From Crossaster papposus (Eukaryota > Echinodermata > Asteroidea > Velatida > Solasteridae): a DNA stretch of 64,000 nt. Each line of letters starts with the position of its first letter. Positions within the stretch are counted from its first letter, which is position 1. Positions 3,001 through 51,205 of this stretch are shown one piece after another. The stretch spans positions 248,001 through 312,000 of the forward strand of contig JBAIAA010000806.1 of NCBI GenBank assembly GCA_037893245.1. The letters run 5' to 3'. Below the pieces are notes generated by a model. It was not told where the DNA came from and did not search any database. It worked only from the letters and a program-made list of their open reading frames with translations. The translations under genes were made by a program, and so were the position numbers.

Positions 3001-3900
3001 AAACGCGTGTGTTAACGTTAAAATGTTCAGAAAATCGAAATAAAATACTAACAAAGCATGCCCCTGGTCAAATTGCTAATTTTGCCATTCCTGGAGGCCC
3101 CCCTCTATCTCCTACCACCCAGCCCCTTCCCGGGGCATGATTTCCTTCATGCCCTTATTTGTGGGCGGGGATTGTGTGCACAAACCTATGGCGAATTTGA
3201 AACGCGTGTGTTAACGTTAACATTTTCAGAAAATCGAAATAAAATACTAACAAAGCATGCCCCTGGTCAAATTGCTAATTTTGCCATTCCTGGAGGCCCC
3301 CCTATATCTCCTACCACCCAGCCCCTTCCCGGGGCATGATTTCCTTCATGCCCTTATTTGTGGGCGGGGATTGTGTGCACAAACCTATGGCGAATTTGAA
3401 ACGCGTGTGTTAACGTTAACATTTTCAGAAAATCGAAATAAAATACTAACAAAGCATGCCCCGGGTAAATTGCTAATTTTGCCATTCCTGGAGGCCCCCC
3501 TCTATCTCCTAACACGCAGCCCCTTCCCGGGGCATGCTTTCCTTCATGCCCTTATTTGTGGGCGGGGATTGTGTGCACAAACCTATGGCGAATTTGAAAC
3601 GCGTGTGTTAACGTTAAAATTTTTAGAAAATCGAAATAAAATACTAACAAAGCATGCCCCGGGTCAAATTGCTAATGTTGCCATACCTGGAGGCCCCTCT
3701 CTATCTCCTAACACCCAGCCCCTTCCCGGGGCATGCTTTCCTTCATGCCCTTATTTGTGGGCGGGGATTGTGTGCACAAACCTATGGCGAATTTGAAACG
3801 CGTGTGTTAACGTTACAATTTTCAGAAAATCGAAATAAAATACTAACAAAGCATGCCCCGGGTCAAATTGCTAATTTTGCCATTCCTGGAGGCCCCCCTC
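1..3900. repeat. Satellite array, left arm (199-bp monomer)
   Basis: About 19.6 tandem copies of a 199-bp monomer, mostly differing by a few substitutions. Recognisable blocks in each copy are GTTAACGTTAAC, TACTAACAAAGCATGCCCC, CCTGGAGGCCCCCCTCTATC and GTGGGCGGGGATTGTGTGCA. Each copy has a perfect 15-bp inverted repeat, AAAGCATGCCCCGGG and CCCGGGGCATGCTTT, about 60 bp apart. Because 199 is not a multiple of 3, open frames rotate from copy to copy, so the repeated 113-residue ORFs are not genes. The array stops in mid-monomer at 3900, where the transposon begins, and resumes at 21479. Confidence 0.98.
3893..3900. repeat. Target-site duplication, left copy (CCCCCCTC)
   Basis: These eight bases are part of the normal monomer (GGAGG, CCCCCCTC, TATCTCC). 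They recur directly after the right end of the element at 21479-21486. The C run allows some slippage, but 8 bp is the length that keeps the two terminal repeats symmetric. Confidence 0.88.
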
Positions 3901-3924
3901 CAGGGGGGGGCGGAGGGGGGGCCC
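3901..3924 (+). repeat. Left terminal inverted repeat
   Basis: 24 bp starting CAGGGGGGGGCGGAGG and ending in CCC. The inverse of the right end differs only at positions 4 and 8 (G here, T there). Beyond base 24 the two ends are unrelated. Confidence 0.92.
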
Positions 3925-4155
3925 AAAAAAGTGCGCCACCAACGTTGGTTTGTATCTCATTCGTTCTTCCGCGCTTGCAAGGTACACATTGATTCATAGC
4001 ATTGTGCACACACGTAGACGTGACACAGCACATGCACAATTCCACGCACGAGGCACGGTGATCGCGCCCTGTCTGATCGCGTTGCAAGCCCGTCTTTTTG
4101 AATGACACACCGGCGGTAGCGTGGTATTGTGATCGGCCGGCCAACTGTTTACAGC
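3925..4155 (+). promoter_or_regulatory. Left subterminal region, promoter and 5' leader of the nuclease gene
   Basis: Only 231 bp separate the left terminal repeat from the nuclease start codon, so any promoter must lie here. It is more GC-rich than the introns. It contains a 12-bp perfect palindrome, ACCAACGTTGGT (3938-3949), and CGGCCGGCC just before the start. I see no clear TATA box. The palindrome could be a site for transposase or a transcription factor; this is a guess. Confidence 0.45.
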
Positions 4156-7100
4156 ATGGGAATCAAAGGCCTGCTGTCGAAATTGCGTGAGCATTCCCAA
4201 AGGATACACATATCAGAGCTTCCCCCAAACAGTCGGATCGGGATTGACGCCTCTATTTGGCTGTATAAAGGAGCTTCCAAGTGTTGTTTAGAGCTCGTAC
4301 AAGGAGTAGACACCGACATGTAACACATCATGTTACAAATGTATATCGTTTCCTTGACCTTGCTCTATGGTGATATTTTAAATGGATCACACAATCATAA
4401 ACGGATAGTATAATCATGGATGAATAAGATTAAGAAGGAATGTTGTTGAATTGTGAAATTGCATATTGTTAGTTTTGGAATTCGACAAAATTCTACAAAT
4501 TCGTTAAAAAGAGGCATTACAGATAGATCTGCTTGTTGTAGTTGTTGTAGGGGTGGTCCATGACTTTTAACCAGGCTTATACATGTAATTACATGTGGAA
4601 TGTAAATACATCCTATTTTTAACATTGAGGTAGGCCCTAGTCATGGTAGGGATACGATGTACATAACATTGTGATGACTCGGTGACCATCTAAAAACAAA
4701 GTGAATTTTATAACACATTCCATACATGGACATCACTATAAATTTTCCCCTGCATGCATAATTGATCATAAAAATTAATAGAAAGCAACAGCAAGTCATA
4801 GAAATTTCAATTTAATAGCAGAGACAATATTTCAGCATTTACAGAATATATTAAAAAATTTAAAACCAGTCTCGGTCAAAGCATGGAGGAAAAAGTATTC
4901 CTTCGTGGTCATAGGGCTTGATGAGTACAGGGTGATCATTAAGCCATGTCCAGGTATGGACAATTTTCCAAAGTTTTCTTTTCTTAAAAGATTGTTTTTA
5001 AACGTTGGATTCGCGTGCCAACATTTACATTTGGATTTATTGTTTTTGATTCATACTGGATGCAGATACATCAAGACATTTCTTGATGCCATAAAACTAT
5101 TGGAGGGGAACAACTTGCAACCAGTTGTGGTTTTTGATGGCGAACCACTACCTGCTAAGGCTCATCTGAATGAACAACGAGCTAGGTAAGATATGCACTG
5201 ATGCTTCGAAAACAAAATCAACTTGCAGTTATTTTCAGTCACATTTTAAAAATATTTTTGTTAATGTAATTTAAAGTTCAACTGTGTTTTCCTCATGTGT
5301 CCTGGAGGAAGGTTGCAATTTTTAATTTACATTGTACCACAAATTATGACAGTGCTTGGCCCTAACATTATAAATTATTTAAATGTTCAATTGTTACAGT
5401 ATAATAAACAGATGAAATGTAACTACAGATGAAATGTATACAGATGATAATATTGTGAATACAAAAAGGAACCACTGTAATGTACTTTAATTTTCTTTTA
5501 ATTTCAAATCATCATTATATCATACACGTATCTGAATTTTTATTTTGTCTAGTGTTAGACGAGATGCCCGTGTGCAGGCACTGTCTTTACTGAGGGAAGG
5601 ACAAGATGTTCATGCAAGGAGACGGGCTGCGGCTGCTGTACATGTCACCCCAGAAATGGTTGACAATGTTATAGTGGTGATTTTTTTTCTTTTGTTTGAA
5701 GGAAGGGGGATAAGAATAAAAATTACTTAAGAATTATGTGTAGTCTCCCTGTCATTACATTTAGTTTTCATCATAAAGTCACTATTACACAGTTCAAGAA
5801 AATTAATGTCAGTGAAGTTCTTTGTTCAGTTTGATTATTATCAAATGGAATGTACATTTGTAACCGTCTACTGTTTTCTAAAAGCAATACTGTTATGGTA
5901 TAACCATAATGCCTCATGTCACATGCTGTGAATGTTCAGGGACATAATGACATCTACCTTTCAAAATAACTTGCACTTGTTACATTTTTCTACAGTCTTT
6001 GAATCGGAACCATATTCCTTGGCAACAAGCACCTTATGAGGCCGATGCCCAACTAGCCTACATGTCTGTCAATGGACAGATTCAGTATGTTATATCCGAG
6101 GATTCAGATCTACTCGTATACGGAGCGTTACAAGTAAGTGTCGTGAACATTTTTAATGATTAAAAATTATACTTGCTAATCATAAACCGTAAAAATAATA
6201 ATGAAGAGAAGAGGGTTACATACTCAAAACTAAAGAGTTCATTTAAATTTATAAAATGTTATTGCCAGCAACATTGTCAATAATAGTGAAGTTTGATTTT
6301 TGATGTTATAGTTTGTCAATGGATTCCACCTGAAATACAACAATTCCTTTTGAAAGGTTGACATGGTATCTCAGCAACACAATTTATTAAACATCAGAAT
6401 TTGGCGTTCAGAATTTTGTGTCATATTTATTAAGAGGTATGTATTTTTAACTAAAAGTTTAATTCAATGATGCCCTACACAGGTCATTTACAAGTACAAC
6501 TGCATTAATGGAAGTGGAGAAATGTTGAAGAAGACAGACCTACAGAGAGCATTTCCCGGCTACACACACACAAAGTTTCAAGAAATGTGCATCCTAAGTG
6601 GTTGTGACTACCTTCAGTCACTGGCAGGCGTTGGGCTAGCAAGAGCTGAAAAATTTGTCAACAGTGTTTCAGCGGCAGATATCACTCGGGTAATAATTGA
6701 TAAATTTTACTTAACCTGACACATTTCCCAAAAGAGGTACTACAGAGAAAAAGAAAAAGCTAACATACAATTAAAGCCAATTAATAATGTCAATCTAGCC
6801 TGTCGGGTTCCTTTTCAGAGACCACATGAAAACCTTTGTAAAAAAAGGGCTGCAACCATCTAGGAGAGTTGTCTGGCAGACATCTTGAAAAGACCTCCTC
6901 CATAGTTTCCTGGAATAAAGGCAGGACCCTGTTCTTTATTATTAATTTCTTCCTCAACATACATATTTTATTTTATAACACAGGAACTGCCAAATATTGG
7001 AAGGGTACTTGGCAGAGCATTGGTTGTGGAGCAAGAGTACATGGAGAACTTTAAGGCAGCACTCTTTGCTTTTAACCATCACGTCGTTTTTGATGAGAAC

Positions 7101-9082
7101 AAGGGTGACCTCGTCCCATTCACACCATACAAACCAGGTTTCAAACTGTACCCTTCAGGGGGAATGTATCCTTTTTGTTACCATTGTAACAACATTTTCC
7201 TTTGTTGCTGTATAAAAACCGATTTGTGCTCCACCACCTATATGTTTTAACTGGTCGTGACAAATAAGCCAATACAGTCAAAAAAATATACTTAACTTTG
7301 TGATAATAATTAAACAGGACTGACAGGAAGTTGCCACTCCAGGGCAACATGGATGCATTGTTGTTTACTCTTGGTGACTTTGACATATCTGGTAAGCACA
7401 ATATCTCTTTGAATTATGGGAAGATAGTGTTATTAGCTTTCATGTTGTAGACCCCCTCTGTAGTAAAACCCCTCCAGAGTGAAGTTTTTGTAGAAAGTAG
7501 CACCCCCATAAAAAAATGGAATTGGCCAAAGACAACACAGAGTGCATGTGAGTGTGCATGGTCACTTTCACATATTTTGGCAAAGTGATCAGACGTATTC
7601 ACAACGGTGTTCTCTTTTGTCTTTGCCCAATAGGTATGTACAAATGTTTCTTTCTTTTTATACACATCTAGGTTCCTTTATTTCTGTTCACATTTTCATT
7701 TACTTGGAGTATACAATCAATGACTTAAGTTGATCAATTGGCCGAAGGTAAATTGTTCTTTGAATTTGTCAACTTTACTCTTTTGCCAAGTACCATAGAG
7801 ATTTGACATGTTTGAAGTTTGTTTTAGGATGCTTAGATGTTTCCATTATTGTTTGTATATTCACTTTTATGTAACTTTAGATGAGATTTAAGATGATATA
7901 AGTTTGGTTAGTTTTTAGCAACTTAACTTTAGTTATTCACTTCAGTTATTCATGGGAAGTTTCACTAAGTTTCCTGGATTTGAGGAAAGTTTGGTGAAAG
8001 TTGTGGAGTTGATAACTTGGATTTCGTTTATTTAAGAAACTGGACCATGTATGTTTTAAAGTAAACGGTGCTAGTAGATTATGAAATTGAATGTAAGTTT
8101 CACCATTTAGCCAAGGAAACTTCCATTGCAAGCATTGAGTGTATATAGACAAGCTGAAGCATGACCTTGCCACGTTGTGGAGGGGGAATGCTAACTAGGC
8201 TAGCTAGAACAATGATATACTTGTGTGTGTAGTAATGGAAAGGCCACCTGTCCCACAGTAAGTGTAGCACTGAAGCAGTAGTATGCCCCAGACAATTGAC
8301 TTGGCTGGAGTTGAGCCATACAGTGGAATGTCTGTTGCCATAGCAACAAGGGTGCTGGCCAGCCTGAGTAGTGTGTTTATCTTTAAGACCTGACAGATAA
8401 TAAGAGTTCTCTTAGTTGTGGCCACGAGATTATTAAGTTAAGTTTCCCCTGTGGGTTAGATAGTACATGTAGTTGGCCATTAGTTTTAAAGTGATGTTTC
8501 TCCTAAAGTTTGATAGTTTTGGCCATACTGATTTAAAGTGTTGTTATTTAGGAAACTGACTTAACCTTTTTCTTGTAGACTAATTGTTTGTTTATTATGA
8601 TGTTTGAATAAACACTTTCACATATTTTGGCAAAGTGATCAGACGTATTCACAACGGTGTTCTCTTTTGTCTTTGCCCAATAGAAATAACGTTACCACAT
8701 GACAGCTGGGTAACAATATAATGACATAATGACATATTGACATTACCCATCACATACAGTAATAGTGAAGTTGCCGTTCATTACACGATATTAATAAATA
8801 CCTAGGAGAGTTGCTGGCTTCTGATTGGTTGAGACTCGATCAAGTGGAGTGGATTATCAGGTAGTAATAGCATGGGTTTCAAGAAGAAGCGAATAAATGT
8901 TACCTGAACCAGCAATAATCAAGCATCATGTAAGCCAATGATTGGCCGAATGCAACAGTTCTACGGTAACTTGTAACAAGGACGCGTCAAATCTTGATAC
9001 GGTGCGCTATAAAATGTACGTGTAAAACGTTTGTATCTATTCGCGCGGCATATTTCAGTGGCATAACTACGGGAAGAAAAGT

Positions 9083-9127
<45 letters not shown>

Positions 9128-10084
9128 GTGCACCCCACCTGATAATGCGGGTGACCCCTAAATATTTCTCTGCCATATTTCCCATTTGGCCCAAAAGGAA
9201 ATTTAGACCGATGTTCTATCCATTTTGCAGGTGTTCTTGACACGTCGTATGAGCCGGACATCACTTTTGAGAATTCAACATCAAGTCCTGATGATTCAAC
9301 TCATTTACTGCGATCAAGGGGAGAGTTCATTCACAATGTTGAGATTATCAGAAATTACAACTGGACAGTACCAGGGCTCCCTGTACTCACACTGTCCCTT
9401 GCTCTTGGAACAGGGCTTGTCAACAAAGAACATTCCCAAATAGCCCTGAACCTGACACCACCATGGGGCATCCATCAGATCCCAGAACATGTTCATACTT
9501 CAGTGAAATGCATGGAAAAATGTGACATCTCCATCGAAGATAAGGATTACATTCTCTTATGGAAGTGGGAGTTTGTTTGGGATGGTGTTCAGTCCAGTGG
9601 AACGTCTAGTGAGATTGAACTGACAGGTAGTGCCAGTGAACTAGATAGTACAGAAAGCCCTGATATAGTTCTGTCTGGTGAAAGTAGCCCTGAAGAGGAT
9701 GTCGAGCACTCCCTACCATTTAAAGTAATGGGAAGTGTTTATAAAGTTTCACGGCAGGACATGCTGCTTTCAGCGAAGGAGGCAATGGACAGAGGAGAAG
9801 AGGTTGGAGTAACCTTAGAACCAGAACCGAACAACCCAAAGGATCCAAGAGCAATTCAAGTAATTCTACACACAAACAACAAATCTGCATGTGTGGGCTA
9901 CATACAGCGAGAACTCACAGAGTTTATTCACCCTCTGATTGTAGATTTTCAAATTGTGAAATTATGTGTGTCACATATCAAATTCCAGTTATTTAATCCT
10001 CCTGGTTATTATCTCAAAATAACTATCACAAGAAAAGGTAGATGGGAAGCTCTTGTACTGCTGAAATCACTCAGTGTGCGTTGA
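4156..10084 (+). CDS. EXO1/FEN1-type XPG nuclease fused to a C-terminal HIRAN domain (8 exons, 620 aa)
   Basis: Exons: 4156-4319, 5066-5185, 5553-5676, 5996-6133, 6483-6689, 6984-7165, 7318-7391, 9231-10084. All introns are GT-AG and the sum (1863 nt) is in frame. It starts [12 protein letters not shown], the usual XPG N-terminus after Met removal. The XPG-N domain covers about residues 1-95 ([12 protein letters not shown] with Asp31; [12 protein letters not shown] with Asp79). The XPG-I domain covers about 138-235 ([11 protein letters not shown] with Glu151 and Asp153; ISEDSDLL with Asp172 and Asp174; CILSGCDY with Asp224), then a helix-two-turn-helix, GVGLARA. All expected metal-binding acids are present. 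Residues 338-457 are unrecognised and 458-497 are Ser/Glu-rich. HIRAN spans about 498-606 ([21 protein letters not shown]). This family cuts 5' flaps or degrades 5' ends, and HIRAN binds DNA ends. A role in end or gap processing during transposition is inferred. Confidence 0.87.
4320..6983 (+). other. Introns 1-5 of the nuclease gene
   Basis: Introns are 4320-5065 (746 bp), 5186-5552, 5677-5995, 6134-6482 and 6690-6983; exons 2-5 lie between them. All are AT-rich with GT-AG ends. I see no further gene, RNA or repeat in them beyond short direct repeats of CAGATGAAATGTA near 5410-5440. Confidence 0.7.
7563..7633 (+). repeat. 71-bp direct repeat, copy 1
   Basis: Starts CACTTTCACATATTTTGG and ends CTTTGCCCAATAG. 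It is identical to 8613-8683, exactly 1050 bp downstream. The similarity stops abruptly at both edges. Confidence 0.95.
7634..8612 (+). mobile_element. 979-bp insert between 71-bp direct repeats (possible retroposed fragment)
   Basis: The segment ends TGTTTGAATAAA directly before the second repeat copy, which looks like a retroelement 3' tail or polyadenylation signal. No inverted repeats or reverse transcriptase frame are visible. The 71-bp repeats would be a very long target-site duplication, so a local duplication with rearrangement is an alternative. It contains a degenerate repeat of about 25 bp near 8474-8545 (GGCCAT followed by TTTAAAGTG). Confidence 0.4.
8613..8683 (+). repeat. 71-bp direct repeat, copy 2
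   Basis: Identical to 7563-7633. The downstream flank returns to ordinary intron sequence. Confidence 0.95.
9083..9126 (+). repeat. Homopolymer of 44 G
   Basis: An unbroken G run, about 105 bp upstream of the acceptor of the last nuclease exon. Such a run could form G-quadruplexes in DNA or in the pre-mRNA. Its exact length is uncertain because sequencing and assembly of such runs are error-prone. Confidence 0.9.
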
Positions 10085-10406
10085 AACATTATTGTTCCAA
10101 ACTACAATTTGACGAGGTACTTCGCTCATTTGAGTAAAGTGTACTGCTTTACCGATTTAAATAATTTTAATAATTTATTGTATTTTCGATAATTAACAAA
10201 GACAAATGTTAAAGCAGGTTTTCGAAAGTTCAACAATTAATGTATGATCACAACTTTTATATTTTGGTATTTCAATCTTTCCGTAAAGGCTTTGGAAAGT
10301 CATATACATGTTTCCAAACTTTTGGAAAATTCGCGACATCATCAGGATGACAGACGCACAGATGTCGAGTTTATTAATAGTGCTATGTCATTTTGGAGCT
10401 CAGTAT
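10085..10406. terminator. Convergent 3' ends of the two transposon genes
   Basis: These 322 bp separate the two stop codons. On the minus strand an AATAAA polyadenylation signal (10370-10375) lies 32 bp after the large gene's stop, and another lies at 10174-10179. On the plus strand I see only the weaker AATAAT at 10160-10165 and 10169-10174. If the nuclease transcript uses a later site, the two mRNAs overlap in antisense. Confidence 0.6.
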
Positions 10407-13400
10407 TCACAAATTGGGTGGAGCAGGAAGAGGGTTCTCCACATGGTGATATTTGTCCCTGATAGTCCGCCGACCTGCCCTTGGGGCTTTCGCCATGGCT
10501 GGGTTTTGCTTGGCTGGGTTCCTGACGGCCCATGTCTGTTCCAGTCGCTCTTGACCTTTTCTAGATGATATGTTAAATGATGGCAGTGGTCCCAGTTGAT
10601 ACCTATCATCTTTCGATTGATGGTAGAAAAAAGGGAGATCTGTGTCTAACCTCTTACAAAATTCATTGAGGATCTTCCTGAAATGAAAGCACAGAAACAT
10701 AATTTCAGATTTAACTACCGTTCAATGTCATATGTTTCTTTGCAAATACCGTCTGTTCAAACCGCATATATTTTGTTGACAAATCAATTTAATTTTTTTT
10801 AATATGCCCTTTTACAAAAACCTCAGGTTGTTCTAACAACTATGCCCAGCCCAGTAAGCTTTGTTTGTCTACCACCATGCTTTTAAATCTTGCCACCAGG
10901 TTCGAAGACCATGTTACAAATGAAAAAATGTAAAGACAATAATTCAATTTGTTCTAGAAATAATTCCTGGCCCTACGCAATACTAACAAATTTTACTTGG
11001 GAGAATTTGTATGAATTCATCCCCCAATTTTCATGCGAATATCAACCTATATTTAAGTATGCATTCGAACCTCAATAATAAGAGCACTGTTAATACAACA
11101 TTATGTTTATAACAAGTAACATTTTAGGTCCCAATTACTTGTTCTTCTTTGTGTTTATTCCTGATAAAATGGTAATCAGCAAAGTCCCAAGGACCTTATT
11201 AACAAGGTTTGACTGTACAACTCGGAGAACACTGTACCTGTAGCTAAAGATGAAGTCTTTGTGGTCAAATATTCTACCAAGCATGTGGTGGACTACTGAT
11301 ATAAAAGCTTCCACATCATCAGAGGTTGCAGCACGGGGATGTTCGGGAGGGAGTCCTTCTGACACAAGTTCATGTCGCATTTGTTGGCTCTCTATGTTTG
11401 CAAACAATCCAACCACCACTTCTCTTGTAAAACCCTGCAACCCTTTTACTGATCTGTGGAGCATCAAAAGTCATGTATGTGTACTACATTACATTTTTTG
11501 TTAAAAGAAAAGGCAATTTTCATTTGTCATTCCAAATTACATTGTGGTGTATTCATTAGAAAAGTCAATTTCATTTGTCATTCCAAATTACATTGTGGTG
11601 CATTTGCTAAACTAAGGCATCATACACCAGATATCTATTGATATATTGAGCATCATATGACTGCTGTCACATTCATGCTTGCATTTCCTGTTATCATTCT
11701 GAACGAAATAATGTTTCACTCAATGGTTACATTGGAGGTGGTTTTTGGCAATAAAGTGAAGTTCATGAAGAAAAGAAATGAGCATTCTTTGCTGTGAGTA
11801 ATATTTTTCTTGTATATTGATGTACACATGGTAATGTTACCCCACACAATTACACCATAGAAATGTATATTGAAGGAGGACAGGTCACAGGATGAGTAGA
11901 AGCAAGCCTGAGACTATGACTTTCACATGGTTGCTACACAACAATATCCAGTTATACACATGAAATATTACCTGTTGACATCAATGTAGGAATAATCTCT
12001 GGTGCTTGCTCCAAACAGCCAATCCTCTAAGATGAATGTCAGCATGTCCTTATTGAACTGTGACCTCTGTTCCTCAGTAACCCCTCTTCCATCTGTAGCC
12101 TTGTGCCAGTTGGCAACTACTCGAGCAAACCTGAAACAACCAAATGTGGAAAGGGAAATTATCAATATTCAATTGTCAATGTATTGCACTTTGCAAGAAG
12201 CTAAAGCATGCATCTGACACCAATACCCAGTCAAATGTGGTGGAAGTATATGTAAACTGTGACATTGAAAATGCTGAAAGAAACATGATATTATTTTAAC
12301 AAAATTAATTGATGAGCAAAAACCATGTTTGTTGCTAGGACGACCCTTAACGATGCTTCAAATGGAAAATTATGACTTGAACTGTATTAAAAACTGTATG
12401 AGCAATTCAGCCTAGGTTAATGTCTGTATTGAACAGAATACGAGGCTGACAAAATATGAAAATATAGACAACAAATAGAAAAACTCCATTACAATATTTC
12501 AGAAAAAAAATTAAATTTGCATTAAAAAAACAAAGAGAGAAACACCTGATTGTAAAAACAACAGGGAACATGATATGATAATGGGAACAAGGGAACATTG
12601 TGATTAAAAACAACTGAATTATGAATTTGATTAGGAAATAACGCGTTTGTTTCTGGCACGATTCTTGACGACGTTCTGATGCAGATCCAAACTACCCATC
12701 GTTCACCCTACTGTAATAACATAAATTGTCTAATTATCTTTTGTTTCACATGATTTAGTAACAGCTCTGTATGTAAACAGTAAGAGAGTAAACAATGCAA
12801 TATGATTTGATAATGAAGCTGTTTCAAATGGGGAACACATCAAATGGAAATAATAATACATTAGATATATATCCAGATATCCTGAAAGAAAAGCAGATAT
12901 TTTTCATCAACAGAAGATATCTGGAAAACAACAAACAATTAAATAGAACAATGATAAATTTGTGAATGAAATTAGTATGAGCATGTTCAAAAAGCCGAAG
13001 CTTATGGTTAACATGCCCTTAACAAATTCATTGGTTAGGGGATCCACTAAACGTGCATAAAAATAAATTCTTTGTTTTTTTGTTTTCATGCATGTACACA
13101 GGGCAAACCTGGCTTCATTGGTGTAGTCTTTCCTTTCCATGAAGGAAATGACTCCAGGACTGAACATCCTTTCACAGTCTGACACATTTTGTTTTCGTTG
13201 CCCAGTTACTGCTGCTACTGTTAGCCCAGTACTGGGGTCTTCAAGAGCTTCCACCCACCTATCCATACATTGTTTGCAAAATTATTACAATATAGACTGC
13301 ATAATATTAATACATGTAGGAACAAATATAACAATACATCAAATCAGTCCATAAATGATCCAGCATGGAATCCTTGATTTGCAGTGCAGAAAACAACACC

Positions 13401-16400
13401 CATGCTTGTAAAAACATCATTTCAAAAATTGATTTCCATCCTTTCAAAAACGTCATACTTTGCATCCTAATTGGGCGGTTGTTGTGTATAATTAGGGTCA
13501 AGTAAACATTTCAATGAAATTAAAACATATCCAATGTAAATCACCTTTTCATGTTGCAGTCAGGAATAGTTCCACGTCTCGCACAATTGGTGATTCGCTT
13601 CAGAAGATGACAGTGGTCCTCCCTGTCATGAAATTCGACTCTGGTGTCTGGGTCAACCTCAGGAACATACAGGTGATGTTTGAAGTCGATCTGCTGTTCT
13701 AAGTACTTCTTTATAGTATGCCTGTAAATGTATGTAGCCATAACACTGCGAAGACATTCTGTAACACTTTCTGAAACTCCTGCAATAATTGACCAAATAA
13801 TTATTTACTTTGTAATAAATTCATATATAAGTAGAATGAAAAATATAAAAATACTAAAGTCAAGTTCATGATAATGCTAGCTCCTGTTTAACCAGTTCGC
13901 GCCGGGATTATTTTAACAACGCCGAGCCGACGGGCGGGATTATTTTTAACAAAACTCGATCCGAAGCGTGTTCAGGCTGATAGTGCCGGGAAGCACACCC
14001 ACGCATTTCCGGCCTTGCGCGCTGCTGACATACATTTCCGAACTTGAACTTGGCGTGTTTATGCGTCATCCGTTTTAAATTTTGGGAAATTTTTGCGTTT
14101 ATATACGTCATCCGGCGCGAACTGGTTAGAAAATATTGTGGTAGTGGCAGTCACAGGTATGGATTTTTATGTACAATGAAAGACTCATTAAAAAGTGAGA
14201 GTTATTTAAAAAGTACAGTTTTTTGACTTGCACTTAATTTGTTCGAGTGTTTCTGGGTTAAAAATACAAAAACCGATATAACTACCTGGTGTCCACGTAT
14301 GCACAACAGATGCTGGAGCATATAGGTGTTCATGAAGCATGTGCATTGCTGCCTTGAATGACACACCTTGCTGTAGCCGATCATATAACCACACAACATC
14401 AACAGTAGGTACAGCTGGATGAGTAACAGCAGCGCGAACAGTTGTTTCATCTGACTCAAAGATTACAGTTTGAGAGTTGATATTAAGAAATTGACAGTTT
14501 TAATCAAAACGAAATGTCTATTTTAATCAACTTTCTTTTTTTTTATAAAAAAAAATAAAAAATAAAAAAAAATGAGAAGTTGGTTACATTGATTACAGGA
14601 CAATACCCATTTTTTTTTTTTTTACATGTGCATATCTAAGTGTCAGTACATTTACAGCTTTTCAAAAGTAGAGGTGTGGAATGGGGAGAGAGTTGTAAGT
14701 TTTAGTTGTGAAATGGTCCTTACAAGCAGAACTGCAAACAATTGGATGGAATATTTCTCAGTAACAATGACAAACATAAAATGAAAATATGGTCTTACAC
14801 ACTGCATGAGTAAAGAAAAGATTACCAGTAACAGTTGGAGTCAAGTAACTTTTGAGGTCATGCACAGGGATTGCTTTGGATTCCCTCTTTGCATCCATTA
14901 ATAGCTGAATAGTTGATACAGGCCGAGTTTCTCCTTGTGTCCGTAAGGAGTTCCACTCACCATCTGTCACAAAACCTGAAGTAATGATAACAATTTTCCA
15001 ATAATGTATTCAGAAATTTCAAACATTAGTTTGAAACATAACAAAATTTACCTTCTCCCATTATTCTTATTTTTAAAAATGTGTTCTATTAAGAACACGT
15101 GGAGTCAGGTTGGTGTGGTCCCTTTCCTTGTCTTTCACCTGTGCAATTTGCATTTCGGCCTTAGCCAACATGGGAATGTCGATCGATTTCAGTCCCCGAT
15201 GTGATTTGGGCAGACTATCATTTCTGGGTCTTTCGGGCCCTGTTCCAACAAGACTGCGACCCTTTGGACAAGGAGTTCCTGTGGTCAGGGTTGGTGTAGT
15301 CCAGTATACTTTAGTGTTGTACCCTGGTGTTGTACCATGTTGTACCATCATCAATCCCAACTGATATCCTCTGCGTATCTTCATATCAGTATGAAATTTT
15401 CCTGTATATTTAACATTATTTGAAGGTGAATGATTCTGATGAAAGCTAGAGCTATTTTAAGTATGGAGCCGAGCTAAATATTGTTACTCCCTGATCATTT
15501 CCACTCAAGCCAATGATATAAATATATAGGCCGATGCCTCCAGTCCATGGGTGGATATTCCTGGGCCACATGCTGTACATGTACCACCATCAATCCCAAT
15601 AACTACCTCCTGTGTCTCTCCCCTTTCAACTTGCCGACAATTCAAGAATCTCCAATCTCATAACTCCCATTACATATAAATAAAGAATATTTATTTACCA
15701 ACTACAGTCATTCCAACTGATTTCATTGACATCTTCAGCTCCCTAGCTAAACTCCTGATCTGGTCATCGGTTGCTGTTGAGATGGGCATTACTCTCACTG
15801 GTAAAGCATAAGGCTTGCTTCTCCTAAGTTCGTCCGAGATCATGAAAATCAGCAGATGGGTGGCAACTTCTCTACTGGCTCTTGTTAATCCAACTACATA
15901 TGACCTTAGTTCTGATTGAAGCTTAACCATGTCTGTCCTGTCGCCTAAAGCACAGACATAAATAGATAAATACATGTATTACATGTACCACACTTACTTT
16001 CTTCATGTATACACCCTGGTATGATTTCATTAATTTCCTTGCAATAACAGATCAACGCACATGGCTACTCAGCAACATACTATTGATTCAATTAATTTTC
16101 TAGTCTTGGTTCCAAGGCGTTACTAGGAGGATAATTCACCATAAACACAGACATAAACCTATGTACTTTATGTCTGTGGCTGGATGCATTCCACATCCCA
16201 TAAATCACAGAAATATAAAGATTTTTGTTATGTCTGTGCCATATATACACGAAAGCTGACTTTGTCGACGAAGGACACCCGCTTTAGTGAATCGCTGCTG
16301 TCCAAATCGGTACGCGTTGAAACAGCGCACCGTTAAGGACACCTTGAAACCAAGACTAGCTGAATAAGTAGGGGGCTTCCCTTTTTCAAAAGTTGAACTA

Positions 16401-19400
16401 AATTAATTTATGAATCATCGTGGGCCGTTTTGTTTTTGGCTTGATATCTCCTTTGAAAGCTTATAACTAAACCAATGCTAGAAAATTATTGATTTAATTA
16501 TGAATTATATTTTTGGGGTGCCACACCCAACAGCACACATACACCAACTATCAGAAATTCTATCTTCTGACATTTAGGAAATATTAACAAAAAACTGGGA
16601 TGAGACTTACCAGTAAGGATGATATCATTTATCAATTTGGTCAGGCTTTTGTTGCTCTTTAAAAGGTCACTGTATGTTTGAGCCTCCCATGCAACTTCCA
16701 TCAAGACATTGCGTGCCACCCTAGGGTTGCCTTGTTTCTTGACTAGTTTTTGTGAGGATCTGTCTTTGTCTGTGCTCATAAAAGATTTTAAAGAAATGTA
16801 TGTGGAGGTTACATGAGTATGCTCAGTAAAGGCATTGTACCAAACGATGAAATGAAAGTTGTAACCCTAATATGTAGGTACATGTACATGGATGCCATGG
16901 TGGCAGGCATATCAACAGAACAGATCAATGTGCAATATGTAGTTGAAAGAAGTTTAATAATTAATTAACATAGTTCTTGTATATCAAAATCAATTAATCA
17001 TAGCTAATCACTTTTTCACTTTGTCAAGCTGGCGTAGTGTTTACTTTTCTCGCCTTCCACCGCTGTGGCCGGGTTCGATTCCTGCCTGGACCACATGTGG
17101 AAGTCCCTGCCCTATTCTATGAATTTTCTTCTGAAAATTCTTCTGGGGTTTTCCTTCCACTTCTAAAACTGTAATTTCTTCTCCTTGTCTTTAATTGATA
17201 GGTTTCTTCAGGCTTTCGAGCTTCAGTGCCTGTGACACTTTTAGGAAATTGTTAGTTTCATTACCAGAAAGAATTTAAATAAATAAATAAATAAACAAAA
17301 CATCCATACTTTTTTTCAATGCTTTCTTCTCAGTCGTTAATGTCTCCAAGCAAGATGGCAGATCACTGAGCTTCAGGTTTTCGATGGCACACAATCTTGC
17401 TTTATAGGCAGAATGCGTTTCTTGCAATTGTCCATCTCCCCAATCTACATCTCCTGTCCAATCACCTTTAATATAAACAAAAATAGGAGTTGCCGAAGTT
17501 CAATGAAATAGAAATGATTCCTCCTAATGACACAGTTGTTGTTGACCGTGCCGCAGCACGAGGACAAATTTTACAATACTGGTTATAAGGGGAACAAGAG
17601 AGATGACTCTGAAATTAACCTTCTCATACTTTTAAGGCATCCAAAGTGTTCTCCAAATATTATATGTGTCACATGTGTGTATGTCATACATGTCATTCCT
17701 TGAATTATTCAATCAAAATGAATAATTACCCTTTGTGCTCTCTCGAACTCCTTTGTTTACATCACAGGCATCAGCCTTTATCCACCATCTTCCTTGTGGG
17801 TTTGTCCGGTGGGCTTGTCTAAGCATCTCAACCTAAAGATCAAATTTAAAAAGATTCCCAAAAGATAATTAACACAACTGTAGTACTTGCTTTGCATAGG
17901 AAATTTTTTTTCTTCAAAACACCATCTTTTGTACGTGCAAATAGACAAAGAACCAACTGAATAAGCAGTAACAAAGTATCGACAAAATAGTAACAAAAAC
18001 AACAATGGGACTGAAAACCAATATTATCCCTCTATTTCTCATGGCTTGTAAAGTGAGCGAGCCTTATTGAGAAAAATACTTAAAAACAACCAAACCTGAA
18101 TCGAAGCATCTGCAGCGAATGGAGTTTCTGCAATATGCTTACGCAACGTCCTGGCAGATAGACCAACAACATTAACTTTGGCCTGTGAACAGATGAATGT
18201 TCAATACAGAAATCATTATCCGGGAATTAAAATGCAATTGTCTGTGTGTATAATTTACACCCTTTGAATCTGTTCGTGTTTAGTAACTTGTACTATAAAG
18301 GTAGACTACTTACATGTGCTGTCTCCAGTCTGTGCCCTGTTTGTTTACTTGATGGCTGGTTTATGGTAAGCTTCTGTACATCAGCCTCAGATGATCGGGG
18401 GGTTGTTGTCTTGACTGGAGTTGATGTAGATGTCGGTCCAAGGGACAAAGCCACTGCTTCTGCGAGAATATCACTGGATACCTCATACTTGAACATCGGC
18501 CCAGTGAATAGCGCAAGAAATTTTTCTCCGCAGTGAGCATATAGTGTTTCAAGGAAAGAGGCATAGGCCGGGTGTATTTTGACACAATCCATGTAACGTT
18601 CATGGAAAAATTGAATGTTGCTCTCAATCAATGGATACGGCATTCTGTTCATGTCAATCTTGCCTGATGCCAAATTATCAGCTAGTTGATAGATGATGTT
18701 CGGTCTGTTTGCCTGAAGTGTCCATATCATTCCCTCAACTAACACTCTAGCACAGTTCCTTGGCACTGAGAAGTCCGGATCAGTTGTTTTTATTGCCTTC
18801 TCGAACAGAAACTGAAGATGCTGCTTATCAGTGGAACTTGGCACACTTTTGACACTTTCGCTGCTGTCAGTGTCACTATCCCCATGTGTAACATGAAAGG
18901 TGTCCTCTGCAGCTTCTACTGTAGGGAAGATCTTTATCAGTCTTGTAACTGCACTGCGACAGGCACTATCTGTTGCAATACAAAAAAGGAAAATTAAAAT
19001 TTCATTTTTAATGTGTACTCACTGCCCATCCTTAACAACAAAATGTTGTGGTGGTGGACGCCTGTCAAAGTTAAGTTTATAAGTAAACTTCAAAATGTTA
19101 AAAGAATAACATGTGTTGCAACCTTACAAGAATTTTTTTTGAAATGGCTATATTTACCTATTTTCACAGGAGCATAGTAACTAGTTGATCAAAGTATTGA
19201 TGCAACTATGCATTTTTATACATGAAGTATCATCATTATTTTACTGACCTGTTCTTGACCCGGAACACTTTAGGTTGACAAACTGGGCACAGTCTTTCCA
19301 AAATTGCTTATTCTTTTGCAAGGGCCAGCCAGCTTTCCCCTCTGCAGTGTGATGCAGTGCAACGTAAGTCACCAGACTTTTGGTCTCACTGTCGCTCCAC

Positions 19401-20155
19401 TGCTTCTCAGCAACATGCTTGAAAGAGAATTAAAGAATAACAAAACTACATACCCGGTATCATTATTGGACTTGGAACTCACAATTATTTATCAGGACCT
19501 AATTGGTATACAAATTTAGATAATTTTTTTATTTTTCTTTATTTTGCAACCTAATGATGAATTTCTGATGTTGATACATGTTATTTGTCATCATCGGGTG
19601 GGGTGGCTGTATCACAGCTTCATCACCATGAACGTCACTAAAAATGTACACTGTAAATACAACATCGCATTAACGTCACAAAATCATAGCCAGTGGCAAC
19701 CAGAATTCATTACCATTTTCTTTCTAATCAAGGCGTGGGGAATACAAACATTTTCCAGCTCAGACATACAGTGTGTACATACATTACATGTCATTGACTT
19801 TTTTATTGCAGAGAGAGGGAAATATTCTTTAATAATTTTTTTTTAAACATTATGTATCTCTCCAAATCCCATAGCAGTACTGGTCAGGAGAACAATATTG
19901 TTGATACAAATTGGGAACAATACGTGTAACAATTTCAAATAGACATAACTAAAATAATGACAATTTAGAAAAATTGGTAGAAGATTATTAGCACAAACAT
20001 TTTATATTTGTTTGCAGGTTGACTGTCAGTGTCAGTAACGTGCCAATTTATTCCCTTACCTTTGGTGGTGCTTTAGTGGTAAATAACGACCGTCTCTTCT
20101 TGGTGTCAGGTTTGCCGGGTGTGTCTCCAGAAGAAATATGTTGGCGCCTACTCAT
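10407..20155 (-). CDS. Putative transposase with N-terminal Myb/SANT domain (15 exons, 1005 aa)
   Basis: Exons in order: 20155-20060, 19417-19249, 18969-18314, 18182-18096, 17832-17730, 17465-17310, 16769-16611, 15944-15699, 14975-14826, 14450-14286, 13779-13545, 13258-13109, 12130-11972, 11453-11238, 10677-10407. All introns are GT-AG; 3018 nt end in a stop with no break. Residues 1-32 are basic. Residues 38-103 form a Myb/SANT-like trihelix (QWSDSETKSLV, QFWKDCAQFV, CRSAVTRLIKIF). Next come GRWWIKADACD (Asp357, Asp360), VVGFVTDGEWN (Asp562) and FHDREDHCHLLKRI (Asp717), resembling the beta1, beta4 and DxxHxxK motifs of RNase H-fold transposases. The C-terminal part has VKGLQGFTREVV and LPPEHPRAATSDDVE, then a basic tail. 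I assign the transposase role from these motifs, the terminal repeats and the position; the catalytic residues are unproven. Confidence 0.85.
10678..11237 (-). other. Intron 14 of the putative transposase gene
   Basis: 560 bp, AT-rich, with GT-AG ends on the minus strand. Nothing recognisable is seen inside. Confidence 0.7.
11454..11971 (-). other. Intron 13 of the putative transposase gene
   Basis: 518 bp with GT-AG ends. It contains the 52-bp tandem duplication listed separately and otherwise nothing recognisable. Confidence 0.7.
11514..11605 (+). repeat. Two-copy tandem duplication of about 52 bp
   Basis: CATTTGTCATTCCAAATTAC followed by ATTGTGGTG occurs twice (copies start about 11514 and 11566). 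The copies differ by one T and one C/T change. They lie in intron 13 of the large gene. Confidence 0.85.
12131..13108 (-). other. Intron 12 of the putative transposase gene
   Basis: At 978 bp this is the longest intron of the gene. It is AT-rich with short purine-rich tracts and scattered TTCAAATGG or TCAAATGG words. No gene, RNA or clear element end is seen. Confidence 0.65.
13891..14126. mobile_element. MITE of about 236 bp with TA duplication
   Basis: It begins ACCAGTTCGCGCCGG and ends in the exact reverse complement, with TA on both sides (13889-13890 and 14127-14128). With the duplication the inverted match is 17 bp. The flanks also fit TTA, so a Harbinger-type origin is possible, but TA gives symmetric ends and suggests a Tc1/mariner type. 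It sits in intron 10 of the large gene, is GC-rich relative to its surroundings and has no coding frame of note. Confidence 0.85.
14451..14825 (-). other. Intron 9 of the putative transposase gene
   Basis: 375 bp with GT-AG ends. It contains long T and A runs (about 14527-14572 and 14611-14622). Nothing else is recognised. Confidence 0.65.
14976..15698 (-). other. Intron 8 of the putative transposase gene, with coding-like debris
   Basis: Splicing from 15699 to 14975 gives a seamless protein (VVGFVTDGEWN), so this 723-bp segment is intronic. It contains a minus-strand ORF at 15073-15384. It also has two related stretches near 15350-15385 and 15585-15625 that read roughly ETQEVVIGIDGGT and DTQRISVGIDDGT on the minus strand. 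They may be decayed, duplicated exon pieces of another sequence. I cannot identify a parent gene. Confidence 0.45.
16103..16356. mobile_element. MITE of about 254 bp with TA duplication
   Basis: It begins GTCTTGGTTCCAAGGCGT and ends in the reverse complement of GTCTTGGTTTCAAGGTGT (16 of 18 match). TA flanks both sides (16101-16102 and 16357-16358). Inside is a perfect 12-bp hairpin arm pair, CACAGACATAAA and TTTATGTCTGTG (16146-16157 and 16167-16178). It lies in intron 7 of the large gene. TA flanks suggest mobilisation by a Tc1/mariner-type transposase. Confidence 0.8.
17025..17297 (+). mobile_element. tRNA-derived SINE
   Basis: A tRNA-like head contains a B box, GGTTCGATTCC (17072-17082), preceded by an A-box-like TGGCGTAGTG about 40 bp upstream. 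It is followed by a body with CTGGGGTTTTCCTTCC and a tail of AAAT repeats (about 17277-17297). This layout is typical of SINE2-type elements transcribed by RNA polymerase III. It sits in intron 6 of the large gene, opposite to the gene's direction. The 5' edge is uncertain and I could not define a target-site duplication. Confidence 0.75.
19418..20059 (-). other. Intron 1 of the putative transposase gene
   Basis: 642 bp between the short first exon and the SANT-coding exon, with GT-AG ends on the minus strand. AT-rich; nothing recognisable inside. Confidence 0.7.
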
Positions 20156-21454
20156 TGTGTGAAAAATAGGTGAATTCTACAATATGGAAATTTAAAAAGA
20201 AAAACAATTCAGCAACTTGAATAACACGAGAAAGTAGAACAATTGTTCATGTTAATTTAACGCTTCATATAATTAGAAAGACTGTTGATTATAAATAATG
20301 ACTGTGGTCATCACTAGGTTCAGGAGGAGAAAAGCAAACGATAAACGTTTATGACGTTCAGACTAGGGTTGGAACAATTCAATCAGCAAAGATAAAACAC
20401 GAGCCTAATGATTTTCTGACAGTTACTTTGACAAGTGAAAGTTAAAGGTTCGCTATATGTTAAAGCATTCCTCTATGGTTAAAGCTAAGTGGTATATTCA
20501 AACTCAATTTTGTTTGGAGAACCAACAACACTCACTAGTTCCCCAATTTTTTAAAAAATAAACTAAAACAGTGAGTACCGTTCAGAAAATTCAGCTAGCA
20601 TAAAATTGGTCTCACACGACACAGGCAGTGACATTTTAATTTGAGATATGCCAACGCTATTCAATTAAATATCATACTCAAATCCCTGTTATTAGGCCTA
20701 GTATTATGAATAATTACCAGGTTGTTGAAAAGTAAAGCTTCATGATTATACACCACTGTTTAGTGTTACTTTACACACTCGCGTAAAACGTAAATAGAAA
20801 GCTGTCACTTGCAGTTGCACTGTGTGTCGATTCAGTCATGGAGAAATAAGACACATTATTCAGTCCAGTCAGTTTGTAAACAAGCTTCACACATACCGTG
20901 CGCGTGTTGTGTTCCCAGCCGTCGATTACGTGAATCCACATCTCGAAAGGTTTGGTGTCCGACTACGTACACAAGCACGGAATTTGTTTGGGGAGATGTC
21001 ATTTTCGGCCAGTTTCGTTCGAAAACAACACGATAAAACGCAAGGGGTTCACAGGCAGATTTTTTTAAAAATTCAGTATATCACTGCTACATCCTTTTTT
21101 AACGTATCTATGGAAAAAAATGAGTGGGTTCGAAGCACGATTTTTCACAATTTATCGATTATTATGGCCCTTTTTAGGGGAGGTACTTGTTAACGTCGTT
21201 TGAGTATTTGTGCACAATCTCCACGCGCATCAACGGTACGTCAACGCTTAATTTTTTCGACTGCTTTTTTAATTTTCAATACAATTTTTGTCATTGGATG
21301 ATAACAATTAAGGTAAATAACAACCTTTTACAACTACAAAAGACAAGATGTTAAGATTGGATGCCAAAAACTCTTTATTTTTCGAGTGAGAAAATTGTTC
21401 CCCCCTATTTTGAGAATGGACGGTACCACGGCGTTTCGCAATCACAGCCTCGAA
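20156..21454 (-). promoter_or_regulatory. Right subterminal region upstream of the putative transposase gene
   Basis: About 1.3 kb between the large gene's start codon and the right terminal repeat. It should hold the promoter and any untranslated first exon. Short plus-strand ORFs here have no recognisable similarity. I see no TATA box or repeat array that I could defend. It is much longer than the 231-bp left counterpart. Confidence 0.45.
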
Positions 21455-21478
21455 GGGCCCCCCCTCCGCCACCCACTG
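21455..21478 (-). repeat. Right terminal inverted repeat
   Basis: Reads on the minus strand CAGTGGGTGGCGGAGG, then a G run and CCC. It pairs with 3901-3924 (22 of 24) and marks the outer end of the element. Confidence 0.92.
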
Positions 21479-21486
21479 CCCCCCTC
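21479..21486. repeat. Target-site duplication, right copy (CCCCCCTC)
   Basis: Identical to 3893-3900 and followed by TATCTCCTAACACC, the normal continuation of the interrupted satellite monomer. Confidence 0.88.
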
Positions 21487-44500: not shown

Positions 44501-46995
44501 GAAAATCGAAATAAAATACTAACAAAGCATGCCCCGGGTCAAATTGCTAATTGTGCCATTCCTGGAGGCCCCCCTCTATCTCCTAACACCCTGCCCCTTC
44601 CCGGGGCATGCTTTCCTTCATGCCCTTATTTGTGGGCGGGGATTGTGTGCACAAACCTATGGCGAATTTGAAACGCGTGTGTTAACGTTAACATTTTCAG
44701 AAGATCGAAATAAAATACTAACAAAGCATGCCCCGGGTCAAATTGCTAATTTTGCCATTCCTGGAGGCCCCCCTCTATCTCCTAACACCCAGCCCCTTCC
44801 CGGGGCATGCTTTCCTTCATGCCCTTATTTGTGGGCGGGGATTGTGTGCACAAACCTATGGCGAATTTGAAACGCGTGTGTTAACGTTACAATTTTCAGA
44901 AAATCGAAATAAAATACTAACAAAGCATGCCCCGGGTCAAATTGCTAATGTTGCCATTCCTGGAGGCCCCTCCTCTATCTCCTAACACCCAGCCCCTTCC
45001 CGGGGCATGCTTTCCTTCATGCCCTTATTTGTGGGCGGGATTGTGTGCACAAACCTATGGCGAATTTGAAACGCGTGTGTTAACGTTAACATTTTCAGAA
45101 AATCGAAATAAAATACTAACAAAGCATGCCCCGGGTCAAATTGCTAATTTTGCCATTCCTGGAGGCCCCCCTCTATCTCCTAACACCCAGCCCCTTCCCG
45201 GGGCATGCTTTCCTTCATGCCCTTATTTGTGGGCGGGGATTGTGTGCACAAACCTATGGCGAATTTGAAACGCGTGTGTTAACGTTAACATTTTCAGAAA
45301 ATCGAAATAAAATACTAACAAAGCATGCCCCGGGTCAAATTGCTAATTGTGCCATTCCTGGAGGCCCCCCTCTATCTCCTAACACCCTGCCCCTTCCCGG
45401 GGCATGCTTTCCTTCATGCCCTTATTTGTCGGCGGGGATTGTGTGCACAAACCTATGGCGAATTTGAAACGCGTGTGTTAACGTTAACATTTTCAGAAGA
45501 TCGAAATAAAATACTAACAAAGCATGCCCCGGGTCAAATTGCTAATTTTGCCATTCCTGGAGGCCCCCCTCTATCTCCTAACACCCAGCCCCTTCCCGGG
45601 GCATGCTTTCCTTCATGCCCTTATTTGTGGGCGGGGATTGTGTGCACAAACCTATGGCGAATTTGAAACGCGTGTGTTAACGTTACAATTTTCAGAAAAT
45701 CGAAATAAAATACTAACAAAGCATGCCCCGGGTCAAATTGCTAATTTTGCCATTCCTGGAGGCCCCCCTCTATCTCCTAACACCCAGCCCCTTCCCGGGG
45801 CATGCTTTCCTTCACGCCCTTATTTGTGGGCGGGGATTGTGTGCACAAACCTATGGCGAATTTGAAACGCGTGTGTTAACGTTAACATTTTCAGAAAATC
45901 GAAATAAAATACTAACAAAGCATGCCCCAGGTCAAATTGTTAATTTTGCCATTCCTGGAGGCCCCTCTCTATCTCCTAACAGCCAGCCCCTTCCCGGGGC
46001 ATGCTTTCGTTCATGCCCTTATTTGTGGGCGGGGATTGTGTGCACAAACCTATGGCGAATTTGAAACGCGTGTGTTAACGTTAAAATTTTCAGAAAATCG
46101 AAATAAAATACTAACAAAGCATGCCCCGGGTCAAATTGCTAATTTTGCCATTCCTGGAGGCCCCCCTCTATCTCCTAACACCCAGCCCCTTCCCGGGGCA
46201 TGCTTTCCTTCATGCCCTTATTTGTGGGCGGGGATTGTGTGCACAAACCTATGGCGAATTTGAAACGCGTGTGTTAACGTTAACATTTTCAGAAAATCGA
46301 AATAAAATACTAACAAAGCATGCCCCGGGTCAAATTGCTAATTGTGCCATTCCTGGAGGCCCCCCTCTATCTCCTAACACCCTGCCCCTTCCCGGGGCAT
46401 GCTTTCCTTCATGCCCTTATTTGTGGGCGGGGATTGTGTGCACAAACCTATGGCGAATTTGAAACGCGTGTGTTAACGTTAACATTTTCAGAAGATCGAA
46501 ATAAAATACTAACAAAGCATGCCCCGGGTCAAATTGCTAATGTTGCCATTCCTGGAGGCCCCCCCTCTATCTCCTAACACCCAGCCCCTTCCCGGGGCAT
46601 GCTTTCCTTCATGCCCTTATTTGTGGGCGGGATTGTGTGCACAAACCTATGGCGAATTTGAAACGCGTGTGTTAACGTTAACATTTTCAGAAAATCGAAA
46701 TAAAATACTAACAAAGCATGCCCCGGGTCAAATTGCTAATTGTGCCATTCCTGGAGGCCCCCCTCTATCTCCTAACACCCAGCCCCTTCCCGGGGCATGC
46801 TTTCCTTCATGCCCTTATTTGTGGGCGGGGATTGTGTGCACAAACCTATGGCGCATTTGAAACGCGTGTGTTAACGTTAACATTTTCAGAAGATCGAAAT
46901 AAAATACTAACAAAGCATGCCCCGGGTCAAATTGCTAATTTTGCCATTCCTGGAGGCCCCCCTCTATCTCCTAACACCCAGCCCCTTCCCGGGGC

Positions 46996-50963: not shown

Positions 50964-51205
50964 CGTTAAAAATGTTCAGAAAATCGAAATAAAATACTAA
51001 CAAAGCATGCCCCGGGTCAAATTGCTAATTTTGCCATTCCTGGAGGCCCCCCTCTATCTCCTAACACCCAGCCCCTTCCCGGGGCATGCTTTCCTTCATG
51101 CCCTTATTTGTGGGCGGGGATTGTGTGCACAAACCTATGGCGAATTTGAAACGCGTGTGTTAACGTTAAAATTTTCAGAAAATCGAAATAAAATACTAAC
51201 AAAGC

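Follow-up and report, generated by a model that had tools for sequence, protein, structure and literature searches.

A 17.6-kb element occupies positions 3901–21478 of the Crossaster papposus DNA analysed here, a stretch of 64,000 nucleotides (the window; contig C806:248001-312000 of the host assembly). The assembly contains 1.02 Gb in 1,841 contigs; C-numbers designate contigs and L-numbers designate fetched loci. The element ends in terminal inverted repeats (TIRs), lies between two copies of a target-site duplication (TSD) and carries two genes, the first predicted to encode an EXO1-like XPG nuclease with a fused HIRAN domain, the second probably encoding a P-like transposase (Table 1).

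An earlier note, made from the sequence alone, had described 24-bp TIRs matching at 22 positions, a perfect 8-bp duplication and exact resumption of the surrounding satellite. All three were recovered: the same ends with the same match count, CCCCCCTC on both sides, and a junction that restores intact satellite. When 150 bp of each flank were joined with one TSD copy, the resulting 300 bp matched three sites within the window's right-hand satellite without a difference (300/300); the monomer around the element is 199 bp. Comparison of all 2,100 × 2,100 end pairs around both edges returned a single pair in which the 8-bp flanks were identical and the TIRs matched at 14 or more of 24 positions. 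The right TIR of the window copy carries two substitutions relative to the C118 copy and the short copies read. Because the TIRs, the TSD and the joined flanks agree in this way, the locus represents insertion of a complete unit into a satellite array, and the element is, with hardly any doubt, a DNA transposon.

Gene 1 (+ strand, 8 exons, 620 amino acids) and gene 2 (− strand, 15 exons, 1005 amino acids) are convergent and separated by 322 bp. In these gene models, predicted from the sequence and its conservation, every junction of the 23 coding exons is GT-AG and neither frame has an internal stop, in agreement with the complete spliced frames proposed earlier. The earlier note described an intact-looking two-gene element, as found here, and overlooked the EXO1-HIRAN nature of gene 1, the P-like character of gene 2 and the many short derivatives.

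Predicted products of the two genes

Gene 1 matched three Pfam models above their curated cut-offs: XPG_N (E = 1.2e-16), XPG_I (E = 9.3e-20) and HIRAN (E = 1.6e-7). Among solved structures human EXO1 was the best match (E = 3.2e-54, 188 bits), followed by FEN1 (76 bits at best) and XPG (49 bits). The alignment with human EXO1 (PDB 5uzv and others) covers the catalytic domain, residues 1–304 to 1–305, and all seven active-site acids of this superfamily are kept, at gene 1 positions 31, 79, 151, 153, 172, 174 and 224. Gene 1 differs from human EXO1 in carrying a HIRAN domain as its C-terminal part and in residing in a transposon.

The HIRAN domain of gene 1 contains the Asn pair N537-N538 within PNNPKDP. 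Mutation of this pair in HLTF is described as impairing fork binding and reversal (PMC4666394) and Cas9 removal (PMC11237066). The likeness to HLTF comprises both the Pfam match and residues needed there for both activities, whereas in HLTF the domain is joined to a SWI/SNF translocase and in gene 1 to a nuclease. The ligand of HIRAN is given in PMC11237066, citing other work, as the 3'-OH at a single-stranded DNA end; PMC4666394 argues instead for single-stranded DNA and fork-specific binding.

In the host genome, XPG_I was found in 17 rows (21/21 candidates scored), seven in the two element families described here, two in a degenerate relative and eight elsewhere. The EXO1-like exons on C191 and C513 look like the host's own EXO1. 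They are just 38–49% identical; capture of the host EXO1 was therefore not recent, and recent capture was rejected as an origin of gene 1. The degenerate relative, a third XPG sequence at C258:2040147-2042950 and on C545, is 65–94% identical in short pieces and 40% over a longer one, and adjoins a hAT dimerisation-domain fragment.

Gene 2 was compared by hhalign, as a three-row profile, with an alignment of 10 P transposase frames drawn from the 131 PF21787 matches listed for the host genome; two of the frames are nearly identical and several are incomplete. Three weak matches were obtained, colinear across the catalytic core: gene 2 residues 316–387 with P columns 127–204 (score 28.7, HH-suite probability 2%, E = 0.021), residues 499–563 with columns 205–266 (46.6, 57%, E = 1.1e-4) and residues 702–879 with columns 293–490 (40.5, 27%, E = 6.5e-4). 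Controls comprising 39 column shuffles and one reversal of the P alignment scored at most 22.6. Two subsets of the P frames scored 37.3 and 42.2, and of the ten sequences taken singly, five placed the region around 499–563 first (25.7–37.9), as did L071 with 23.4. The first and second acidic motifs are in register with those of P transposases, and so is DHCH at gene 2 residues 717–720, which aligns to the D-x-x-H of P. This D(2)H motif, between the second and third acid, is a trait of the P superfamily.

Several results weigh against the assignment. No Pfam transposase model reached its cut-off in gene 2 and no solved structure in the PDB was matched by sequence or profile, which is why profiles of P transposases from the same genome were used. 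The closest model, PF21787 (TNP-like_RNaseH_N; cut-off 24.6 bits), gave 13.8 bits for gene 2 (E = 0.075) and 14.9 bits for its catalytic part (E = 0.033), with a best E of 0.01 for the row of the second family. The three HH-suite probabilities above reach just 57%, with E-values that come from one comparison, and the two subsets gave 16% and 43%. Taken singly, L068 gave its highest rank to an unrelated match of 10 columns (34.5), and L054, L057 and L072 reached 19.9–22.0, the level of the controls. The third acid, in TSDDVEAF, was matched by eye and left unaligned by hhalign of the C-terminal halves. AlphaFold models of two single exons were uninformative (mean predicted local distance difference test scores of 43.7 and 34.6).

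On balance, gene 2 is probably a P-like transposase, and its profile matches likely reflect remote homology to P-type transposases, short of membership. The P superfamily has 8-bp TSDs and CA...TG ends, and an N-terminal THAP domain is common in it, not universal. The element resembles P element and THAP9-type transposons in its TSD, its CA...TG ends, its colinear core and the register of the first two acids (D1 and D2) and D(2)H. It differs in scoring below the Pfam cut-off, in the lack of a THAP match in a Pfam scan of gene 2 up to E = 1, in the approximately 110 residues between the GDVDWGDG segment (ending at 387) and the next match (from 499), and in its XPG-HIRAN partner gene and 23 exons in two genes. 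Two other superfamilies were rejected: for hAT, there was no PF05699 match and hhalign with hAT frames of three loci gave at most 17.7; for KDZ/Zisupton, there was no PF18758 match and hhalign with a 129-residue KDZ frame of two loci gave 15.9. The TSD of Zisupton is given as 8 bp (PMC12730594), while gene 2 has no Zisupton domain. No relatives of gene 2 were found among viral contigs, using gene 2 alone or a two-row profile.

Copies, short derivatives and a second family

Exons of both genes were found at five loci (the window locus on C806, C118, C264, C59 and C877), and C400 holds a fragment. The C118 copy is 99.85% identical to the window copy over a 10,000-bp stretch and 97.5–100% identical over others; it has its own TSD, CCCCACGG, and flanks unrelated to those of the window. 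The earlier note had proposed a young element and suggested looking for copies with the same ends and different 8-bp flanks. The C118 copy bears out its youth, and such copies were found wherever ends were read, similarity stopping at the same CAG ends and not extending past them. Approximately 1.27 kb of gene 1 intron 7 (around 7444–8715) are absent from C118 and C877; without its own insert, the C118 copy measures 16.3 kb. That insert, a 4.9-kb element in the C118 left end (L029:131-5051), has termini CAAAGA...TCTTTG and an apparent 8–9-bp duplication, (G)CTTGCAAG. At C264, C59 and C877, about 30–51 kb separate the left end from gene 2, probably owing to nested insertions.

Among the five two-gene loci, both frames are open in the window copy only, C264, C59 and C877 having been read in part, with many exons outside the fetched stretches. 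At the other four loci gene 1 exon 8 is damaged: by a 14-bp indel at C118, by three gap letters at C264 and by two stops at C59, both of which recur at C877. C264 additionally has a 1-bp gap in exon 14 of gene 2, and C877 a stop in exon 6 as well as gaps. The open frames of the window copy are consistent with an autonomous element.

Short derivatives are numerous. A 32-nt right subterminal sequence has 580 exact matches in the genome (306 + 274), compared to none for the backwards pattern. The stretch C84:14685-48016 holds ten right-end copies, most of them 2.9 kb apart at regular intervals, which probably reflects a short copy trapped in a tandem repeat; the 580 matches are therefore not 580 independent insertions. 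In a non-random sample of 20 fetched from 40 scored right ends, a TSD was detected by script at 15: 13 perfect at 8 bp, one of 9 bp and one of 8 bp with a mismatch. Since L012 and L017 share flanks, this corresponds to 14 of 19 sites. At the other five ends, G-runs blurred the position; at L020 the TSD appeared by eye to be 8 bp. At L009 and L019, at least, no second end was seen. The TSD is thus 8 bp in the window copy, at C118 and, perfectly, at 13 of the 20 right-end loci. In both short copies compared, L016 and L028, 75 bp from the left end (93% identical) and 503 bp from the right end (96%) enclose other sequence. When the joined flanks of five loci were searched, the 40 matches scored belonged to two of them, with at least 12 uninterrupted repeat matches for L013 and at least 28 for L014; these matches crossing the junction are empty copies of the repeats that were entered.

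A second family, represented on C999 and C599, has the same convergent gene pair and, at C999, a similar left end (CAGGGG...). Both of its copies are broken: exons 13–14 were not found at C999, and at C599 a stretch whose frame appears, by eye, reverse-transcriptase-like interrupts exon 14. Compared to the window copy, gene 1 of C999 is 61% identical at the protein level (503 codons; nonsynonymous divergence, dN, 0.30; synonymous divergence, dS, 2.6) and gene 2 is 63% identical (804 codons; dN 0.28; dS 3.4). Because dS is saturated (above 2.5), only the direction of dN relative to dS is meaningful. That direction indicates that, over this longer distance, selection has kept both genes together. 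Because a family with proteins this diverged retains the same convergent pair, the nuclease has long belonged to the element.

A further set of related sequences was encountered with gene 2 exon 3, for which 41 of 46 scored matches are 47–49% identical copies of one sequence (on C375, C183, C733, C453, C356 and others), with many copies per contig, tens to hundreds of kb apart. The copy at L046:5900-8300 contains second-family transposase exons 1–3 and 5, exon 5 being present twice, and no later exon was found within the fetched 8.5 kb.

Proposed mechanism and alternative explanations

The explanation we lean towards, with a little better than even confidence, is a recently mobile two-gene cut-and-paste transposon comprising a P-like transposase and an EXO1-HIRAN nuclease, the role of gene 1 being taken loosely. 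Some of the copy data weigh against it. In the first family, where numbers are small, the dN/dS ratios are not distinctly low: for the two genes they are 0.51 and 0.52 at C877, 0.46 and 0.86 at C59, and 1.28 (16 differences) and 0.19 (5 differences) at C264, with too few differences at C118 (2 and 3) for an estimate. Additionally, the second family has His in place of the first HIRAN Asn.

The steps proposed here build on what the sequences show, namely the ends, the TSD, recent mobility, the conserved gene pair and the catalytic residues of gene 1. Gene 2 would act as a DDE-type transposase with an RNase-H core of P-element type, binding the CAG...CTG ends, joining them to the target with an 8-bp stagger and exposing 3'-OH ends. 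The HIRAN domain may recruit the EXO1-like nuclease to these exposed 3' ends. There gene 1 could, in the course of excision, trim or cut the 5' strand or flap that is not transferred, or it could resect the broken donor site and so lead to repair from the sister copy. A function of gene 1 in end processing is put forward tentatively; alternatively, the nuclease might work in donor repair alone.

A stricter version, in which the P-like DDE transposase is responsible for the 3' ends and the docked EXO1-HIRAN protein for cleaving or resecting the 5' strands, is doubtful. If true, this division of labour between two nucleases would be a eukaryotic counterpart of TnsA/TnsB of Tn7, where a second nuclease likewise handles the strand that the transposase leaves. 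The analogy would be functional, and the nuclease fold differs. Such a division of labour would also be, to our knowledge, the first use of HIRAN in transposition.

An alternative assignment, which we consider fairly unlikely, is that the element is an AcademX transposon with an Academ transposase as gene 2, its usual XPG partner and an atypical TSD length. The AcademX nuclease is XPG, so that a nuclease of the expected type is encoded beside the transposase here; we know of no HIRAN fusion in Academ. TSD length is described as related to the enzyme encoded, 3 or 4 bp in AcademX with its nuclease and 9 or 10 bp in AcademH with its helicase (PMC10045372). An expansion of Academ is reported in bivalves (PMC10294476). 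Against the AcademX assignment stand the 8-bp duplications of the window copy, C118 and 13 of the 20 right-end loci, compared to 3–4 bp, and the resemblance of gene 2 to P transposases, in comparisons that covered frames of P, hAT and KDZ.

A second alternative regards the EXO1-HIRAN gene as cargo, a captured host gene with no role in transposition. Transposons do capture genes, and the host has EXO1-like exons resembling its own gene. This explanation is improbable, as the same fusion holds the same convergent position in the second family at 61% identity, with a dN of 0.30 against a saturated dS, and the distance of the C191/C513 exons argues against recent capture. Misjoining of unrelated genic sequence into the satellite, to be considered for a locus within a long array that is hard to assemble, is extremely improbable given the TIRs, the TSD, the 300/300 satellite continuity and the C118 copy, which ends at the same bases with a different TSD.

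The favoured two-gene transposon with a P-like transposase would be new as a P-like lineage with an EXO1-HIRAN partner; accessory nucleases in DNA transposons as such are already known. Kolobok, which targets TTAA, likewise pairs a DDE transposase with a nuclease gene, of other folds than here. The accessory nucleases of its lineages KolobokD, E and P are described as DEDDh, PD-D/ExK and His-Me finger enzymes (PMC9587614), and DEDDh nucleases are reported in some P and piggyBac transposons (PMC3627910). A literature search that was seldom targeted and left subscription journals mostly uncovered yielded no case of an XPG or HIRAN protein in a P-like transposon. The element may also link P-type and XPG-bearing transposons. 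In two diverged families, a probable P-like transposase has retained as its partner an EXO1-HIRAN protein whose catalytic and end-binding residues are recognisable. Whether the element itself handles the donor break and the non-transferred strand, and by what route, therefore becomes testable.

Feature coordinates and minor observations

Table 1 Features of the element and its target site in window coordinates; exon boundaries are those of the predicted splice models.
Feature	Positions	Strand	Basis or remark
Left TSD copy, 8 bp, CCCCCCTC	3893–3900		Identical to right copy
Left TIR, CAGGGG..., G-rich	3901–3924	+	22/24 vs right TIR
Gene 1 exon 1 (XPG N region, start codon)	4156–4319	+	Splice model
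Gene 1 exon 2	5066–5185	+	Splice model
Gene 1 exon 3	5553–5676	+	Splice model
Gene 1 exon 4 (XPG I region)	5996–6133	+	Splice model, Pfam
Gene 1 exon 5 (XPG I region and the EXO1 sequence beyond it)	6483–6689	+	Splice model, Pfam, EXO1 alignment
Gene 1 exon 6	6984–7165	+	Splice model
Gene 1 exon 7	7318–7391	+	Splice model
Intron 7 segment, ~1.27 kb, in window copy, absent from C118 and C877	7444–8715		Copy comparison
Gene 1 exon 8 (linker and HIRAN domain, stop codon)	9231–10084	+	Splice model, Pfam
Gene 2 exon 15 (stop codon)	10407–10677	−	Splice model
Gene 2 exon 14 (candidate third acid, TSDDVEAF, E892)	11238–11453	−	Placed by eye
Gene 2 exon 13	11972–12130	−	Splice model
Gene 2 exon 12	13109–13258	−	Splice model
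Gene 2 exon 11 (D(2)H motif DHCHLLK, residues 717–723)	13545–13779	−	Splice model, P alignment
Gene 2 exon 10	14286–14450	−	Splice model
Gene 2 exon 9 (second acidic motif VTDGEW, D562)	14826–14975	−	Splice model, P alignment
Gene 2 exon 8 (most of best-matching P-like segment, residues 499–563)	15699–15944	−	Splice model, profiles
Gene 2 exon 7	16611–16769	−	Splice model
Gene 2 exon 6 (GDVDWGDG, aligned to GFVDLGTG of P transposases)	17310–17465	−	Splice model, alignment
Gene 2 exon 5 (first acidic motif KADACDV, D357)	17730–17832	−	Splice model, P alignment
Gene 2 exon 4	18096–18182	−	Splice model
Gene 2 exon 3 (kept in second family)	18314–18969	−	Splice model, comparison
Gene 2 exon 2	19249–19417	−	Splice model
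Gene 2 exon 1 (start codon)	20060–20155	−	Splice model
Right TIR, CAGTGGGTGG...	21455–21478	−	22/24 vs left TIR
Right TSD copy, 8 bp, CCCCCCTC	21479–21486		Identical to left copy

The intron 7 segment of the window copy contains an 82-nt direct repeat (7552–7633 and 8602–8683, 94% identical), and the same intron includes an unbroken run of 44 G at 9083–9126. In the assembly, contig C8 gave COX1 matches without stops, unlike C1841, which is of mitochondrial type with 13 TGA codons; C8 is probably a bacterial contig. Elsewhere in the window, at 46804–54120, the satellite includes monomers of 221–222 bp with a 22-bp tandem duplication (CCTTCATGCCCTTATTTGTGGG). These monomers recur every 1,016–1,216 bp between 46.8 and 50.3 kb and reappear near 53.7 kb, a spacing that suggests a higher-order repeat.

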